Source: Prochlorococcus sp. AG-363-N20 (GTDB taxonomy: Bacteria; Cyanobacteriota; Cyanobacteriia; PCC-6307; Cyanobiaceae). Taken from it: 64,000 nucleotides of DNA. The DNA is taken from NCBI GenBank assembly GCA_003280105.1, contig QCFX01000007.1, positions 1 through 64,000 on the forward strand, in the 5' to 3' direction. This document shows, piece after piece, positions 14,258-22,223 of the stretch (position 1 is its first letter; each line of letters opens with the position of its first letter). A model generated the notes under the pieces. That model had not been told where the DNA came from and made no database searches. It saw only the letters and a program-made list of their open reading frames with translations. A program made the translations under genes and the position numbers.

Positions 14258-16069
14258 ATGCTAACCCTTTCAAAAGTACTCAAACTTCAAATTCAAAACG
14301 CTTTAGAGAGCGCATTCCCTGAAGCCGCCTCAGCAGCTCGAGCGGCTGGTAAAAGGCTAGATCCGCTAATCGTACCTGCCAGCAAACCTGAATTTGGAGA
14401 TTTTCAAATTAATGGTGCCTTGCCATTAGCTAAACCCTTGAAACAATCTCCTCGACAAATCGCTACGGCAATTGTGGAGCAACTAGAAACCAATGCAGAC
14501 TTCCTAAACCTATGCAAACCTCCTGTCATTGCTGGTCCTGGATTCATCAATCTAATTTTAAAACCAAGTTGTTTAGTAAATGAAATAAGTAGTCGACTTA
14601 TCGATAAGCGGCTTGGAGTTCCCTCCATTCCTCCCAAAAAAAAGAATGGGGAAATAAGTCCTGTTGTTATTGATTTTTCTAGTCCAAACATTGCAAAAGA
14701 AATGCATGTAGGCCATTTACGCTCGACAATTATTGGCGATTCACTAGCTCGAGTATTTGAATTTCGTGGATACGAAGTGCTCCGGTTAAATCATGTAGGA
14801 GACTGGGGTACTCAATTTGGCATGTTAATTACTCATCTTAAAGAGGTTGCACCTGAAGCGCTAAGCACTCCTAATGCAATTGACTTAGGAGATCTTGTCG
14901 CTTTCTATCGACAAGCAAAGCAAAGGTTTGATGAAGACAATTCATTTCAACTTGCCTCTAGAGAAGAAGTGGTCAAACTTCAAAGTGAAGATCCAATTGC
15001 ATTAAAAGCTTGGAAACTACTTTGTGACCAATCTCGGCGAGAGTTTCAGAAAATCTACGATCGGCTAAATATTGATCTCACAGAGCGAGGTGAATCTTTT
15101 TACAACCCCTTTTTAAGACAAGTCATTGAAGATCTTAAGGTCAAAAAACTTTTAGTATTGGATGACGGTGCGCAATGCGTTTTCCTTGAAGGAATGACTG
15201 GAAAAGAAGGGAAGCCACTGCCAATGATCGTCAAAAAAAGTGACGGTGGATTTAATTACGCAACAACAGATTTAGCTGCTATTCGATATCGTTTTGATGC
15301 TTCACCCAAAGGAGATAATGCTTTACGTTTGATATATGTAACAGATGCAGGACAAGCTAATCATTTTGCAGGAGTCTTTCAAATTGCAGAGCGAGCCAAC
15401 TGGGTCCCTAACCATGCACGTCTAGAGCATGTTCCATTTGGCTTGGTGCAAGGAGAAGACGGGAAAAAGCTGAAAACTCGATCAGGAGAAACAGTTCGCC
15501 TTCGTGACCTTCTTGATGAAGCAATTGAACGAGCTGAAAGTGATCTGCGGTTACGCCTCAAAGAAGAAGGTCGCTTAGAAAGCGAAGATTTTATTGAACA
15601 TGTCTCTAAAACAGTAGGGATTGCAGCGGTCAAATATGCAGATTTAAGTCAACACAGACTCACTAATTACCAGTTTTCTTTTGATCGCATGCTTTCTCTC
15701 CAAGGTAATACAGCACCTTATCTTCTGTATGCCTTAGTCCGTATAGCTGGGCTGGCTCGAAAAGGTGGAATGATTGACATCGCTCCAGATGAGCTTCAGT
15801 TTAACGAACCTCAGGAATGGAGCCTAATTAGGGAGCTGCTTAAGTTTGATGAGGTCATCGTCGAAGTAGAAGAGGAATTACTGCCTAATCGACTATGCAC
15901 CTATTTATTTGAACTCAGTCAAAGTTTTAACCGTTTCTATGACCAAATCCCCATACTCAAAACCGATGAACCATATCGAAAGAGTCGATTGGCTCTATGC
16001 CGGCTTACAGCAGATACCCTAAAAACAGGCATGACCCTACTAGGCATTCCTACTCTCGAAAGAATGTAA
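14258..16069 (+). CDS. argS: Arginyl-tRNA synthetase
   Basis: A class I synthetase of 603 aa charging tRNA-Arg. The N-terminal Add-1 tRNA-recognition domain is followed by [16 protein letters not shown] near residue 145, the HIGH motif in the form HVGH, and by the degenerate KMSKS segment [17 protein letters not shown] near 405, as usual for ArgRS. The DALR anticodon-binding domain ends the protein ([19 protein letters not shown]). The TAA stop shares its last base with the ATG of the following aminotransferase gene, so the two are probably translated from one transcript. Confidence 0.96.
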
Positions 16070-17187
16070 TGAAATTATTTCCCAAAAAGCAAAAGGAATC
16101 AAAGCCTTCTCCTCGAATTGCAGTAGAAAAAATGCAGACTTATTCAGCTCCACTTGAAGGTCGTCGAGAGCTGCTGCGATTGGATTTCAACGAAAATACA
16201 ATAGGTCCTAGTCCTTTAGTAGTTGAAGCACTCAGCCAAATTCCTAGAAGTGCAATTTCCATTTACCCGGAATACAGCGGGTTAAAGGAAGCTGTCATAG
16301 AAAACCTCAAAGGTTTGCAAGATAAAAGCAATTTAAATACTTCTGAAATTGGTTTATTCAATGGCGTTGATGCTGCTATTCATGCGATTTTTCATGCCTA
16401 CGGAAATCCAAATGATCTACTGCTAACTACAACTCCAACATTTGGGTACTACACACCATGTGCCCAAATGCAAGGCATGAAAATCCATGCGATTCCCTAT
16501 GAAGGGAAAAACTTCGACTTTCCATTTTCAAGGATATATAAAGCGCTGACAAAGCTTAAGCCAAAAATTCTGATGATTTGCAACCCTAATAATCCTACTG
16601 GAACCAGATTAAAAGCAGAGCGCATCCTCGAGCTAGCTCGTGCTATGCCGACAACATTGGTTGTAGTTGATGAGTTATATGAAGCATTTACAGGAGATAG
16701 TGTCTTTCCAAGAATAGACTTTGCAAAAACACAAAACCTCATAATACTTAGGTCGCTGGCTAAAACCGCTGGGTTGGCAGGGTTAAGAATCGGATTTGCT
16801 CTTGGTCACAAAAGTTTGATCGAAAGAGTTGGCCGAGTAACAGGCCCTTATGACATCAATAGTTTTGCCGTCACTGCCGCTTTAGCTGCTTTAAAAGACC
16901 AAGCATATGTAGATAATTACGTTAGTGAAGTCTTAGTTGCGAAGGAATGGATTGCAAATCAACTACAAAATAGTGGCATACGTCATCATATTGACGGAGG
17001 TAATTATTTTTTAATCTGGCCTAAAGAGAACGCATCAAAAATAGAAGAGGCTCTGAAAAAGTCAGGAGTCCTTGTCAGAAATATGAACAAGAAGCATTTA
17101 ATTGAAGGTTCCCTAAGAGTCAGTATTGGAACAAAGGAACAAATGAAAAGATTCTGGGAGGTCTTTCAAAAGATCAGCTTTATCTAG
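16069..17187 (+). CDS. HisC-like histidinol-phosphate aminotransferase family protein
   Basis: A 372-aa fold-type I PLP aminotransferase. LDFNENTIGPSP near residue 40 is the HisC-type substrate segment, CNPNNPTGT near 173 the PLP-ring contact, and SLAKTAGLAGLRIGF near 230 holds the Schiff-base Lys; the C-terminal SLRVSIGT supplies the carboxylate-binding Arg. Histidinol-phosphate or a related amino acid is the likely substrate, but the partial gene at the left edge is another member, so one may serve another pathway. I start it at ATG 16069, which overlaps the argS stop by one base; an in-frame ATG at 15997 lies within argS and would add 24 unconserved residues. Confidence 0.85.
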   Translation: MKLFPKKQKESKPSPRIAVEKMQTYSAPLEGRRELLRLDFNENTIGPSPLVVEALSQIPRSAISIYPEYSGLKEAVIENLKGLQDKSNLNTSEIGLFNGVDAAIHAIFHAYGNPNDLLLTTTPTFGYYTPCAQMQGMKIHAIPYEGKNFDFPFSRIYKALTKLKPKILMICNPNNPTGTRLKAERILELARAMPTTLVVVDELYEAFTGDSVFPRIDFAKTQNLIILRSLAKTAGLAGLRIGFALGHKSLIERVGRVTGPYDINSFAVTAALAALKDQAYVDNYVSEVLVAKEWIANQLQNSGIRHHIDGGNYFLIWPKENASKIEEALKKSGVLVRNMNKKHLIEGSLRVSIGTKEQMKRFWEVFQKISFI

Positions 17188-17189
17188 CG

Positions 17190-17930
17190 TTATCGCATTA
17201 GATTAATAACAGTTTGATCGGAAAGATTTCTGTTTAGAAATACAGTCTTTCCAACTTTCCTTGTCTTTAGGTGACTCAAAGCCTCTAAAAAAGGCTCTAC
17301 TCCTGTTAGATCACAACTTTGAGGAGAGCTTCTCCGAAGGTATTGCACTGGAATTACTTGTTTTGGACTTAATTCCTTTACAACTGTTGCTGCTTCTTTC
17401 CCGTTATAAGCCTTAGCACCTCCACCAACAGCAATAATCAAAACATCTGGACGGCCTAATAAAATCTTATCCTCTGCCGTAAGCGGGGCTGCGGTGCCTC
17501 CTAAATGGGCAAACCTTAATCCTCCCTGAGTCCATTGCCATAGCGTTGCGAGTCCGTACCTACGCCCACCAAATCTGTCGTGCGGTGCAGTGAACCCTTC
17601 TAAGTTCAACTTGCCCAATCGATATGAGCCTGGTTTGACAAGGAATGTACCTTCAGCAATTCTTGCACCCTCATCAGCAAGTTCAGAGCTAGCAAGAATG
17701 ACATCTGCACGCACCCGTGGCTCTTTTAAACCTGCCGCACACCCAACAGACTTAAAAGGGTTTAGCAAAACAGAGTGTCCCCCGCCTTTAATTAAAAGGG
17801 CACTATGGCCATAATTAGTTATCCGCACTCCACCAGCTAATGCAGGCGGAATAGTTGATGCTCCAACCCAAGTGAAAACGCAAATAAATCTTGTAAAAGC
17901 AGATAGGAAAGAATGAAAAGGAACTGACAT
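17190..17930 (-). CDS. Exported, probably metal-less metallo-beta-lactamase-fold protein
   Basis: The 246-aa protein starts with a signal-peptide-like stretch ending in ALAGG near residue 34. The rest aligns by eye with UPF0173-type MBL proteins: ITNYGHSALLIKGG, VLLNPFK, ADVILASSELADEG, APHDRFGG, RFAHLGGTAAP, GRPDVLIIAVGG and KQVIPVQY. In active enzymes the third element would be THGHxDH, the fifth HAGD and the last IPMHY; here these metal ligands are largely lost (ASSELADEG, AHLGGT, VQY), so hydrolysis is unlikely. It is the last gene of a tight minus-strand set behind pabA (25-base gap). A binding or scaffold role in the periplasm or thylakoid lumen is only inference. Confidence 0.75.
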   Translation of the reverse strand: MSVPFHSFLSAFTRFICVFTWVGASTIPPALAGGVRITNYGHSALLIKGGGHSVLLNPFKSVGCAAGLKEPRVRADVILASSELADEGARIAEGTFLVKPGSYRLGKLNLEGFTAPHDRFGGRRYGLATLWQWTQGGLRFAHLGGTAAPLTAEDKILLGRPDVLIIAVGGGAKAYNGKEAATVVKELSPKQVIPVQYLRRSSPQSCDLTGVEPFLEALSHLKTRKVGKTVFLNRNLSDQTVINLMR

Positions 17931-17955
17931 TTTGAAAGGCTTTAAGTTGAAGAAG

Positions 17956-18564
17956 TTAGCAGTGTTTGGAATGAATTTCTGTCATAGATAAAAAGTTGCT
18001 CAGAAGCTGATGCCCACTTTCAGTAAGCACACTTTCAGGGTGAAATTGAACTCCTTGTAAATGAGAGTATTCACGGTGTTGTAATCCCATAATTGTTCCA
18101 TCTTCAAGCCATGCTGTAATTTCTAAACATTCAGGAAAACTTTCTCTGTCCGCAATAAGACTGTGGTACCTAGTCGCAATAAGAGGGTTGGAAACATCTT
18201 TAAAGACTCCTTTGCCGTTGTGTAATACCTGTGAAGTTTTTCCATGCATAAGTTGCTTGGCTCTAACTATTTTTGCTCCATAAGCTTGCGCAATTGCTTG
18301 ATGACCCAAGCAAACTCCTAAAATTGGGAGAGTTGAAGCAAGTTGACTTAAAACTTCCAAACAAATCCCAGATTGATTTGGATCTCCAGGCCCCGGAGAC
18401 AAAAGAATTCCCTGTGGGCCAAGCCTCTTAATCTCCCTAACAGAGATTGCATCATTCCTTTCAACTCGAATATCTTCCGCTACTGGGTGTTTTAAAGCCA
18501 ATTCTCCCAAGTATTGAACTAGGTTGAAAGTAAAGCTGTCGTAGTTATCTATAACAAGAAGCAT
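17956..18564 (-). CDS. pabA: Glutamine amidotransferase subunit, TrpG/PabA type
   Basis: A class I glutamine amidotransferase of 202 aa that supplies ammonia to a chorismate-using partner for anthranilate (tryptophan) or aminodeoxychorismate (folate) synthesis. Visible are [20 protein letters not shown] at the start, [11 protein letters not shown] near 57, the nucleophile Cys in GVCLGHQA near 84 and the His-Glu pair in [11 protein letters not shown] near 176. No TrpE or PabB gene is adjacent, so it may serve both, as is common. It lies between dgkA and the MBL-like gene, with gaps of 13 and 25 bases. Confidence 0.88.
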
Positions 18565-18577
18565 TTGCTTTAAAAAT

Positions 18578-19036
18578 TTAAATCCCTATTCGACTTAAGA
18601 AAGGTGGAAGTAATAGCAGAATGGCAATTATTAAAGAGCTTATAGAAGCAACTAGAACTGCAGCTGCTGCACAATCCTTCGCGACCCTCGCTAGTGGGTG
18701 AAATCGACGACCAATCGCAAGATCTACAACAGCCTCAATAGAAGTATTTAATAACTCCAAAACCAAAACAGCCGCAATAGTCAAAACCAGTACAGCCAAA
18801 TTATTCACATTGAGCTTTAACCACACACCTAGGCCGAACACCAAAGCACCTATAACGAGATGGATACGAAAATTCCTTTGGCTAAAAAAACCATATGCAA
18901 GCCCTTGAGCTGCATAACGAAAACTTGCGGGTAGATCTTTTGCAATCTGCCAAGAACCTCTTCGTTTCCCTTTTCGAGCATGACTTGAAAGAGGAGTGAT
19001 TTTTTCAGACACCGTATTTAAAGACTCAGGTTGCAT
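18578..19036 (-). CDS. dgkA: Diacylglycerol/undecaprenol kinase family protein
   Basis: A 152-aa small integral membrane kinase of the DgkA family, which phosphorylates diacylglycerol or undecaprenol. The family signature [17 protein letters not shown] near residue 95 and [14 protein letters not shown] near 120 are clear, and three hydrophobic segments follow a hydrophilic N-terminal tail of about 50 residues. I start it at ATG 19036; a TTG at 19042, directly after the ybeY stop, would add two residues. Its location in the prfB-ybeY-pabA string is consistent with cotranscription rather than shared pathway. Confidence 0.88.
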
Positions 19037-19042
19037 TACCAA

Positions 19043-19621
19043 TCACTCGTTGTTTATCCAGATAGGCTGAACATTACCGTTGATATTCAAAAGTTGCTGC
19101 TGAAAAAACAGCATTTCTTTAAGACTCTTGGAATTCGGATGCTCCCATCCAAGCAAATGTAATAGGCCATGGCTCAGTAGCCATCTCAGTTCATGTAAAA
19201 AATCATGGTTATGTTGCTCCGCTTGGCTTTGAGCTCTTGTTAGAGAAATGACAATGTCTCCTAATTCAACACATTCTTCTCCAATAGAAAGCATGTTTGC
19301 ATCTAGCACTGGAAAAGATAAAACATCAGTTGCTTCTGGTTTTTGGCGCCAAGAAGTATTTAAATCTGCAATTGTTGCATCATCCGTAAAATGAAGTCCC
19401 ATGCTTAAGCACTTAGTTTTACGAATGACTTGATTACAACTTAAAGAGTCGTGTCTGCAAATGAATTGAATCCATTCACGTAAATCGCTTTCCCATGGCT
19501 CTGGGTCAGCCAAAGCTGCCTTAATTGAAGGATCACAAAAGGTTTCTAATAGTTCTTCAGAAGGAGAATTAAATGACAATACTAATTCCATCTCAAAACA
19601 ATCAGAAAGAGGCATATTCAT
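19043..19621 (-). CDS. ybeY: YbeY, endoribonuclease for rRNA maturation
   Basis: YbeY is a zinc-dependent RNase involved in 16S rRNA 3'-end processing and ribosome quality control. The metal motif H-x3-H-x5-H is intact as HGLLHLLGWEH near residue 147, preceded by ELGDIVISL near 118. At 192 aa it has an N-terminal extension relative to the E. coli protein. ATG at 19621 is my choice; TTG at 19624 and ATG at 19615 are alternatives. It begins 7 bases after the stop of the DUF3285 gene and ends just before dgkA. Confidence 0.93.
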   Translation of the reverse strand: MNMPLSDCFEMELVLSFNSPSEELLETFCDPSIKAALADPEPWESDLREWIQFICRHDSLSCNQVIRKTKCLSMGLHFTDDATIADLNTSWRQKPEATDVLSFPVLDANMLSIGEECVELGDIVISLTRAQSQAEQHNHDFLHELRWLLSHGLLHLLGWEHPNSKSLKEMLFFQQQLLNINGNVQPIWINNE

Positions 19622-19628
19622 CAACTAA

Positions 19629-19817
19629 TCAACTTGGAAGGTTCGGCCGAGCAAACCAAGCAATTAAAAGAATAAATGCCCCAAAACCAAAAGCAGTTAA
19701 TGCAAAATGCGAGAGACTTTGGCTTCCTTTTCGTACCATATTCCTCATGGCAAGTTTCACAAAACTTGGGGGGGGGACGAATTTGCCAGTTGGGTTTTGA
19801 GGGTTTTCTTTATTCAT
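19629..19817 (-). CDS. DUF3285 small membrane protein
   Basis: A 62-aa cyanobacterial protein with one predicted membrane helix near residues 40-57 (FALTAFGFGAFILLIAWFA), preceded by the conserved PPSFVKLAMRNMVRKG. This matches my memory of the DUF3285 family, found next to prfB and ybeY in marine picocyanobacteria. Function is unknown; the basic N-terminal half may lie on the cytoplasmic side. ATG at 19817 follows the prfB stop by 14 bases and has AAAGGA about ten bases upstream. Confidence 0.85.
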   Translation of the reverse strand: MNKENPQNPTGKFVPPPSFVKLAMRNMVRKGSQSLSHFALTAFGFGAFILLIAWFARPNLPS

Positions 19818-19831
19818 AGTAATGACATCCT

Positions 19832-20951
19832 TTAATCCAAATTTGAAAGATCTAGGTCTTTCCTTAAAAGAGCTTGAATAAATGAATCTAAATCACCATT
19901 CATGACTCCTTGGACATCAGTTGTCTCCTCCGCTGTTCTCAAGTCTTTAACCATTTGGTAAGGGTGAAATACATAATTTCTAATTTGATTACCCCAGGCT
20001 GCCTCAACAATATCGCCTCTAATATCTGCAATTTCTGAAGCCCTTTGTTCTTGAGCTATAACCAGTAACTTTGCTTTCAACAACGCCATTGCCTTCTCCT
20101 TATTTTGAAGTTGTGATCTCTCCTGGGTACAACGGACAGCCAAACCCGATGGGACATGGAGAATACGAACTGCTGTTTCAACCTTGTTTACATTTTGCCC
20201 GCCAGCTCCTCCTGAACGGCTGGTAGTGATTTCTAAATCTTTATCAGGAATATCTAATTCAACGTCATCATCGAGTTTGGGCATAACTTCAACACCTGCA
20301 AAACTTGTTTGCCTTTTGCCATTCGCATTAAACGGCGAGATACGTACCAAGCGATGAGTACCTTTCTCATGCTGGAGATAACCATAGGCATACCTTCCTT
20401 CAATCTCCACAGTTGCACTTTTAATACCAGCTTCTTCTCCTTCTGAAAGTTCATTGACCGTGACCTTCATTTGATGGTCTTCTGCCCAGCGGGTATACAT
20501 TCTCAACAACATTTGAGCCCAATCCTGAGCATCTGTACCTCCAGCCCCTGCATTGATTGAAAGGACAACTCCTTCTTTGTCATAAGTCCCACTCAAAAGG
20601 CGTTCTAACTCCCAGCGATCCAGTTCTTTAGCCAGGAGATCTAATCCAGACTGGGCCTCATCTAACATCTCTTCATCTGGTTCAAGTTCATACAACTCAA
20701 CAGTTGCATTCGCGTCATGTATGGCTTTTCTCCATCCAGCCAATTGAGCTAATTGAGCTTTGACCTCATCAAGGGTCCGCATCTGTTTTTTAGCGCTTAA
20801 TTGATCATTCCAAAAGTCCGGTTGAGCTGCAAGCTGTTCAAGGTCCTGTTGAAGTGCTTTTAAAGCTGGAACGTCAAAGACAGTCCTGAGCTTTGCTCAG
20901 GCGGTCAGTGAGGATAGAAAGGTCCCGTTTGAAATCAGTAAGATCCAGCAA
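19832..20951 (-). CDS. prfB: Peptide chain release factor 2, with programmed +1 frameshift
   Basis: RF2 recognises UGA and UAA and triggers peptide release. The main frame runs from 20875 to 19832 and contains the release-factor tripeptide SPF ([10 protein letters not shown]) and the catalytic GGQ ([14 protein letters not shown]). The first 25 codons are in another frame, beginning TTG at 20951 ([17 protein letters not shown]) and ending CTT at 20877 before an in-frame TGA; slipping one base forward at CTT TGA C joins them to [15 protein letters not shown]. The total is about 372 aa, normal for RF2. Because RF2 itself reads the UGA, the shift gives autoregulation in other bacteria. It heads the minus-strand set running to the MBL-like gene. 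Confidence 0.95.
20873..20879 (-). promoter_or_regulatory. RF2 recoding site CTT TGA C
   Basis: Read on the minus strand the bases are CTTTGAC, identical to the core of known prfB +1 frameshift sites. An AGGA that could act as the stimulatory Shine-Dalgarno-like element ends four bases before CTT, close to the three-base spacing known for E. coli. TGA occupies 20876-20874. Confidence 0.9.
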
Positions 20952-21028
20952 AACTAAACTCTAAATTCAAAAACTAGACGCTATCAGAAGAGCAAACGAC
21001 ATAAGATCTTCAAAGCTATATGTGTGCA

Positions 21029-21292
21029 ATGGCAAAAGTTGAAATCTATACATGGCAATATTGCCCCTTCTGTATAAGGGCAAAAGCCTTGCTAGAGAAA
21101 AAAGGTATTAGCTACATCGAACATTCAATCGATGGCAATGAACAAGCTCGTCAAGAAATGGCTATTAGGGCAGAGGGCAGAACGACAGTTCCTCAAATTT
21201 TCATCAATAATAAAGGGATTGGTGGATGTGATGAGTTGCATTCTCTTGAGCAACGACAGGAGTTAGATGGGATGCTTGAGCTAAGCAACTAG
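21029..21292 (+). CDS. grxC: Glutaredoxin, GrxC type
   Basis: A dithiol glutaredoxin of 87 aa that uses glutathione to reduce protein disulfides. Its active site CPFC is near residue 11 in [13 protein letters not shown], the cis-proline is in TTVPQIFI near 60 and the glutathione-binding GGCDEL near 72. An in-frame ATG at 21020 would add MCA; the later ATG fits the family start better. It ends 4 bases before gshB, which makes glutathione, so the two are almost surely coexpressed. It is divergent from prfB. Confidence 0.92.
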
Positions 21293-21296
21293 TGCC

Positions 21297-22223
21297 ATGA
21301 AGCATCTTTTCGTTCTAGATCCAATAGCACAAATAAACCCTTGCAAAGATTCTTCAGCTGCCTTAATGCAAGCAGCTCAAAGAGCATCAATTGAGATTTG
21401 GGCCTGCACCCCTTCCGACCTTCAAGCCCAAGGGGACAAAGCTTTCGCCATTGCCACAGAAGTGGTTCCTGAGCCATGGATAAGTGTCGGCAAACCCCAA
21501 AGTCAATTGCTTGCTGATTTTCAATGCATTTGGATGCGTAAAGATCCACCGGTAGATGAAGCCTTCTTATATGCCACTCATTTACTTGAAGTCGCAGAAC
21601 GAGATGGTGTCCTAGTCCTGAATAAACCAGCCTCTTTAAGAGCCTGGAACGAAAAACTTGGAGCATTACGTTATAGCAAGTTAATGGCTCCTACTCTTGT
21701 TGCTAGCAGGGTTTTTGAACTTGCTTCATTTGCTCGTGAACAAGGAGAAGTAGTTGTAAAACCACTTGGAGGTAAAGGGGGGCAAGGAGTAGTGAGAGTA
21801 GCCAAAGATGCTCCTGGGCTGGAGTCTTTATTAGAACTGCTGACCCAACAAGAAAGATTGCCAGTAATGATGCAAAAGTTTCTTCCAACTGTTGTGGAGG
21901 GAGACAAAAGAATCTTGCTAGTGGATGGTTCTCCACTAGGAGCTATAAATCGTCGTCCTAAGTCAGGGGATTTCAGAAGTAACCTTGCATTAGGAGGTCA
22001 GGCTGAAAAAACTGAATTATCTGTTCGTGAAGAAGACATCTGCAAAAAGATCGGTCCTGATTTAAAAAAAGCAGGGCTTTTCTTTGTGGGAATTGATGTT
22101 ATCGGAGGCATGCTGAGTGAAATTAATGTAACCAGTCCAACTGGTATCCGGGAAGTCGAGAATCTTATGAATGTTCCTTTAGCAGATCAGGTGATATCTA
22201 AGCTTTTAGAAAAATTAGGTTGA
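21297..22223 (+). CDS. gshB: Glutathione synthetase
   Basis: GshB joins gamma-glutamylcysteine and glycine with ATP. The 308-aa chain has the ATP-grasp layout: N-terminal [28 protein letters not shown] near residue 78, the glycine-rich loop [14 protein letters not shown] near 152 and [17 protein letters not shown] near 265, with the metal-binding Glu and Asn. ATG at 21297 comes 4 bases after grxC. The 3' end overlaps menF on the other strand by 37 bases. Confidence 0.94.

Follow-up and report, generated by a model that had tools for sequence, protein, structure and literature searches.

A predicted exported metallo-beta-lactamase-fold protein with most metal ligands replaced, found across photosynthetic cyanobacteria

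The window, a 64,000-nucleotide stretch of Prochlorococcus DNA, encodes a 246-residue protein of the metallo-beta-lactamase (MBL) fold in which five of the seven metal-ligand positions are replaced. The reading that we prefer, at a probability of about 0.6, is that of an exported MBL-fold pseudo-hydrolase kept as a disulfide-locked binding protein, which may retain a remnant site for one metal. A TM0207-like ancestral hydrolase would have lost the first metal site (His and His to Ser and Leu) and the bridging Asp before the photosynthetic cyanobacterial class radiated. Two cysteines, probably disulfide-bonded near the cleft, would have been gained and an export signal acquired. In the periplasm (or the thylakoid lumen) the cleft would then most likely bind a partner protein or a small molecule instead of carrying out two-metal hydrolysis.

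Fold and the altered metal site

The gene and its product are as follows.

17190..17930, minus strand: MBL-fold (Lactamase_B_3) exported protein with replaced metal ligands, 246 aa (open reading frame, PF13483, fold match to 1vjn)

The reading frame was complete from an ATG start through the stop. PF13483 (Lactamase_B_3) matched it with 136.6 bits against a curated cut-off of 24, over profile positions 1-160 of 160, which places the protein in the MBL-fold superfamily. The AlphaFold2 model, built from 56 aligned sequences, had a mean pLDDT of 91.0 and a pTM of 0.85. Its top fold match by structural alignment was TM0207 of Thermotoga maritima (1vjn; Z 26.6, rmsd 1.7 over 186 residues, 26% identity), followed by entries with Z about 17-18, UPF0173 structures among them. 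A single-sequence phmmer search of the solved structures returned TM0207 as the sole match (E 4e-16), and a family profile run against the PDB sequences found it at E 6.5e-37, together with weak UPF0173 matches. TM0207 is thus the best neighbour in both fold and sequence among the solved structures, and the protein falls in the TM0207-like subgroup. The MBL fold claimed by the first-pass annotation was borne out by the PF13483 score and by the model, which matched 1vjn; a non-MBL structural model, the outcome named as refuting the claim, was thus not obtained.

The same annotation had likened the sequence to UPF0173, and this attribution failed. The UPF0173 model (NF001911) scored 24.5 bits against a curated cut-off of 144, covering residues 36-82 only, and in place of the UPF0173 motifs THxHxDH, HAGD and IPxHY the reading frame has ASSELADEG, HLGG and IPVQY. 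The UPF0173 hydrolases (TM_1162, 3x2x/3x2y/3x2z; Igni_1254, 6hrg; 7e3v/7e3w) share the MBL fold with the window protein at Z about 17-18, with only a weak match in sequence. The family is a TM0207-like MBL fold outside UPF0173. A subunit of a solved photosystem complex was also rejected as a candidate, as the PDB profile search at E 0.01 gave only 1vjn and UPF0173 entries, a result that is no proof of absence.

TM0207 and the window protein share the N-terminal GH, the HD motif, PG, VGG and IPxxY. They differ in that TM0207 keeps SHQHFDH, HLGD and IPMHY, lacks both cysteines described below, and in the profile alignment shows nothing but a tag-like stretch before its domain. Four segments of the window protein carry the altered site.

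17667..17690, minus strand: SSELADEG, residues 81-88, replacing HxHxDH, with S82, L84, D86 and E87 (alignments)
17553..17582, minus strand: HDRFGGRRYG, residues 117-126, carrying the kept third-His ligand H117 (homologue alignment)
17496..17507, minus strand: HLGG, residues 142-145, replacing HxGD, the bridging Asp having become G145 (homologue alignment)
17340..17357, minus strand: VIPVQY, residues 192-197, replacing IPxHY, the last His having become Q196 (homologue alignment)

The motifs ASSELADEG, APHDRFGGRRYG, AHLGG and IPVQY were all present in the reading frame; the aligned positions of TM0207 read SHQHFDH, FHD, HLGD and IPMHY. Aligned on TM0207, the seven positions that we take, from general knowledge of the MBL fold, to be metal ligands are S82, L84, D86, E87, H117, G145 and Q196. 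Relative to TM0207, His is replaced at S82, L84 and E87, the bridging Asp at G145 and the last His at Q196. With only D86 (the Asp of HxHxDH) and H117 kept, 2 of 7 positions, the full set expected of a canonical MBL hydrolase (HxHxDH, third His, bridging Asp and last His) is absent. The loss of most metal ligands, as first proposed from the sequence, was therefore confirmed. The accompanying statement, which counted just the APHD His and one His beside it as surviving, understated what is left: D86, H117, H42 and H142 are all kept. H42 and H142 are two further His placed near the cleft by motif.

These replacements were followed through 102 distinct homologous sequences, the window protein included. 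The row for L111 covers the C-terminal half of a split gene, the N-terminal half being uncounted, hence totals of 101 at some positions. The HxHxDH element occurred in 0 of 102, so that none of these homologues had the intact motif that the first-pass annotation had named as refuting it; no second HxHxDH was present elsewhere in the window reading frame. S82, D86, E87 and G88 were each found in 101 of 101 homologues with a letter there, and G122 in 102 of 102. Position 84 was L in 98, M in 2 and Q in 1, and position 117 was H in 98 and R in 3. The bridging position 145 was never D (G 97, A 3, V 1, W 1 in 102). Position 196 was more variable, with Q in 62, H in 36, Y in 2, M in 1 and P in 1, and H42 was kept in 97 of 102. 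At the L111 locus itself (G207:C102:27021-27760) the gene is broken into a pair of overlapping frames, the second of which carries W at 145 and P at 196; a true frameshift and an error in sequencing are both possible causes.

The seven former ligand columns had a mean conservation rank of 24.6 among 213 columns (weighted entropy, L111 excluded), a value matched by 1 in 20000 random sets of seven columns. Replacements kept across the homologues, in columns that outrank random sets, are not a matter of chance. Such conservation indicates constraint, not function, and the ligand loops may be kept for structural reasons. In close pairs (dS 0.05-0.7, n=23) the median dN/dS was 0.17 (range 0.06-0.46); pairs with larger dS reached 0.74, which we attributed to saturation and set aside. 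A decaying gene was rejected on the low dN/dS in close pairs and the lack of internal stops in the listed matches. Loss of catalytic residues (HxHxDH in 0 of 102) together with retention under selection (median dN/dS 0.17) is what characterizes an MBL pseudoenzyme, and a non-hydrolytic role is likely, although Asp86, Glu87 and a His/Gln at 196 may still hold one metal.

The same genome encodes a second PF13483 protein (G000:C3:48303-48872; L062:1468-2229), in which LLLTQGLPDH replaces THxHxDH and the first two ligand His are gone. It had no signal peptide by hydropathy. Of the genomes tested for relatives, all 7 of the class had one and neither of the 2 from sister classes did. This protein lies outside the finding described here.

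Export signal and the two invariant cysteines

Three features lie outside the former metal site.

17835..17930, minus strand: N-terminal signal-like segment, residues 1-32, without twin arginine, cleavage presumably falling between PPALA and GG (hydropathy)
17739..17741, minus strand: Cys64, invariant, possible disulfide partner (101 of 101 homologues with a letter there)
17313..17315, minus strand: Cys206, invariant, possible disulfide partner (102 of 102 homologues)

The N-terminal signal named in the first-pass annotation corresponds to a hydrophobic signal-like stretch, and the AlphaFold2 model placed a low-confidence helix at residues 6-24. Among the homologues of the same picocyanobacterial family (f1), the best 12-residue hydropathy upstream was at least 1.58 in 49 of 49. 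The median of this value was 2.21 in f1 versus 1.53 outside it. The starts also differed in kind. A start of the form M..RRx followed by a hydrophobic residue was present in 50 of 52 homologues outside f1 and in 0 of 49 within it; the two exceptions outside f1 read KRRQFL, after a likely GTG start, and KRKTFL. The twin-arginine motif of Tat export was missing from the window protein, and TatC is still encoded in its genome. Judged from these starts, the picocyanobacterial family most likely switched from a Tat-type to a Sec-type signal while the cleft residues stayed unchanged. Loss of the Tat motif with the cleft residues kept makes it less likely that export requires a cofactor inserted in the cytoplasm. 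The protein would reside in the periplasm or the thylakoid lumen.

Neither cysteine position is Cys in TM0207 or in the five canonical outgroups. C64 comes after the NPF loop and C206 after the end of the IPxQY strand, sites that we take, from general knowledge of the MBL fold, to be loops near the cleft. For two such cysteines of an exported protein the simplest interpretation is a disulfide, which C64 and C206 probably form near the cleft.

Distribution, losses and gene neighbourhood

The family was present in 374 of 388 sampled genomes of the photosynthetic cyanobacterial class, and in 136 of 139 class genomes of a phylum-wide sample. The 153 genomes of other classes in that phylum yielded 49 matches, all weak, of which the strongest had E 4e-6 and 26 bits. 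Five UPF0173-like sister-class sequences were inspected, and in these THxHxDH, HAGD and IPxHY were intact. All 10 class genomes tested encoded photosystem reaction-centre proteins (PF00124, Photo_RC), as against 0 of 17 from the sister classes. In the tree, from which L111 was again excluded, all 101 family members clustered together on a long stem that set them off from TM0207 and the outgroups; the support printed at the rerooted stem was low (0.295), and the grouping is taken jointly with the shared replacements. As far as tested within the phylum, the family is confined to photosynthetic cyanobacteria; outside the phylum, the sampling took in TM0207, the solved structures and the genomes that served as controls in the family searches. 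The expectation that the changes would be constant across picocyanobacteria was supported by the homologue alignment. The suggestion that they might be picocyanobacterial has to be widened, for they are common to the whole class, and an origin within picocyanobacteria only was rejected on the presence of the family in 374 of 388 class genomes and on the shared replacements among the 102 homologues.

The 14 misses comprised 4 of 4 genomes of genus g61, 2 of 2 of genus g73, and 8 drafts. The drafts consist of 260 to 1840 contigs and their misses may be gaps, whereas the g61 and g73 genomes are in one or two contigs each. Genus g61 belongs to the window's own family and g73 to another. Both retain the trpG-like gene, dgkA and ybeY, and the MBL gene is cleanly absent after trpG (L134-L137 in g61; L139, L140, L154 and L155 in g73). 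In g61 the trpG-like and aminotransferase genes nearly abut, and in g73 a different gene follows trpG. Photosystem II genes were present in all four of these six MBL-less genomes that were tested, two per clade. Clean loss in two clades that keep photosystem II implies that the protein is useful, not indispensable, and the two losses offer natural controls for finding co-lost genes. At another locus, L138 (G025:C1:859499-860107), the trpG-like gene has an in-frame TAG, and no MBL gene was detectable in genome G025.

Upstream of the MBL gene the window carries the following genes.

17956..18564, minus strand: trpG/pabA-like glutamine amidotransferase, 25 bases upstream of the MBL gene (TIGR00566, 234.7 bits against a cut-off of 121)
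18578..19042, minus strand: dgkA-like prokaryotic diacylglycerol kinase (PF01219, 114.2 bits)
19043..19624, minus strand: ybeY, rRNA maturation RNase (TIGR00043, 116.8 bits)

Gene order in the window is prfB, a DUF3285 gene, ybeY, dgkA, the trpG/pabA-like gene and the MBL gene, all in one direction with short gaps. A trpG/pabA-like gene stood directly upstream on the same strand, within 600 bases, at 37 of 41 loci (13 of f1 and 28 of other families, some ending at contig ends); dgkA lay upstream within 6 kb at 32 of 41, as did ybeY. Locus L131 was left out of the 41, having no MBL reading frame after the overlap filter. A promoter scan found no promoter-like site on the minus strand from 17930 to 21300, with one at 17014; over 16900-21300 on both strands it gave 3 sites versus 8.0 expected by chance. 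The empty minus-strand interval argues weakly for co-transcription, and the MBL gene is probably co-transcribed with the trpG/pabA-like gene, often also with dgkA and ybeY. The deep conservation of the trpG-like/MBL pair suggests a link. It does not imply a shared pathway, because the MBL product leaves the cytosol, where the trpG-like product is expected to stay.

The prfB model (19832-20896, minus strand) matched from position 48 only, the open frame starting inside the gene, which may reflect the usual programmed frameshift. A hisC-like aminotransferase gene (15997-17187, plus strand), convergent to the MBL gene in f1, scored 245 bits, below the hisC cut-off of 276.55.

Possible functions and relation to known systems

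Use of the cleft for binding is the most likely explanation for replaced residues that are kept almost without exception. Some observations count against this explanation. Three homologues have Arg in place of H117 and position 196 varies, as would not be expected under strict constraint on the cleft, and the invariance of D86 and E87, with His at position 196 in 36 of 102, leaves room for a one-metal site. The main competing reading, which we consider possible though clearly less probable, builds on that room. The protein would be a working enzyme with a rebuilt single-metal site of Asp86, Glu87, His/Gln196 and perhaps His42 or His117, catalysing a reaction outside the cytoplasm with a harder metal, for example manganese, iron or calcium. 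Besides the invariant acidic pair (101 of 101) and H196, H42 in 97 of 102 fits this reading. The Tat pathway suits proteins that are folded with a cofactor before export, and Tat export outside f1 would accord with such a metal. However, the second site is disrupted in most members by Q196 (62 of 102) or by Y, M or P (four more), Gly stands in for the bridging Asp in 97 of 102, and f1 dropped the Tat motif with its cleft residues unchanged.

A structural or carrier protein appears unlikely. Here the old cleft would be functionless, its conserved residues would hold the fold, and the protein would act through its surface or its abundance. Ligand-loop positions do have structural roles in the MBL fold as well, some cleft residues drift (the three H117 Arg), and the family was lost in two clades. 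Yet invariant polar S82, D86 and E87 beside the cleft would be unusual for pure packing, and hardly any random column set is as conserved as the former ligand columns. That the true ligands lie elsewhere, for instance among other His such as H42 and H142, in an ordinary hydrolase misread by the alignment is highly improbable, given that phmmer, Pfam, MAFFT and the structural alignment are all colinear and full-length on TM0207, that the homologues share the replacements, and that the reading frame holds no second HxHxDH.

To return to the binding protein that we favour, MBL folds kept as non-catalytic partners have precedents. Integrator INTS9-type pseudoenzymes are one, although these are subunits of eukaryotic nuclear RNA processing, unlike exported bacterial proteins. 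Among cyanobacterial proteins, Flv1 and Flv2 keep an MBL-like domain without canonical metal ligands; they are multidomain flavodiiron proteins with flavodoxin domains and stand beside the ligand-bearing Flv3 and Flv4 (PMC4390876). The window protein, in contrast, is small, exported and single-domain.

The family has probably been seen already as a secreted protein. In the exoproteome of marine Synechococcus, an abundant "metallo-beta-lactamase" (NP_898405.1) was detected in 7 of 8 strains at 1.3% on average, with one strain excluded, and has high identity across sequenced picocyanobacterial genomes; the available text does not discuss lost ligands (PMC4949707). This protein is probably a member of the present family, a match made by elimination and not by sequence. 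The marine-Synechococcus-like genome G544 has nine MBL reading frames, two of which showed clear signal-like starts by hydropathy and reading. The other exported-looking one, L158 (G544:C1:2328929-2329366), has canonical-looking motifs (THAHHDH, GDTY) and a full-length relative in 1 of 25 genomes of the family, which fits poorly with the high identity reported for the exoproteome protein.

Our literature searches found no paper describing ligand loss in this family, and for PF13483 with cyanobacteria they gave one paper, on ComEC. Two beta-lactamase-type proteins mentioned elsewhere carry accessions that we take to be those of a partner bacterium. They are named in the accessible part of PMC5839243, and the accessible part of PMC3219644 mentions neither cyanobacteria nor TM0207. 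Ligand-poor MBL folds as such are already known, and the novelty, which we regard as moderate, lies in a class-wide, exported, photosynthesis-linked example.

Annotation of the family as a beta-lactamase-type hydrolase is misleading, as the residues do not support what the profile match implies. Few proteins occur in nearly all oxygenic cyanobacteria and are absent from the non-photosynthetic relatives, and such proteins are informative. A fuller and more doubtful picture is that the hydrolase cleft turned into a new exported active or binding site (Ser81-Ser82, Asp86-Glu87 and His117/His142), closed by the new disulfide and holding one hard metal or none, in a family that would have arisen with photosynthetic cyanobacteria to serve an extracytoplasmic task required by nearly all oxygenic cyanobacteria. 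If the exoproteome protein belongs to it, the family ranks with the abundant released proteins of marine Synechococcus. Identifying its ligand or partner would mend the annotation class-wide and could reveal a shared periplasmic or lumenal function.
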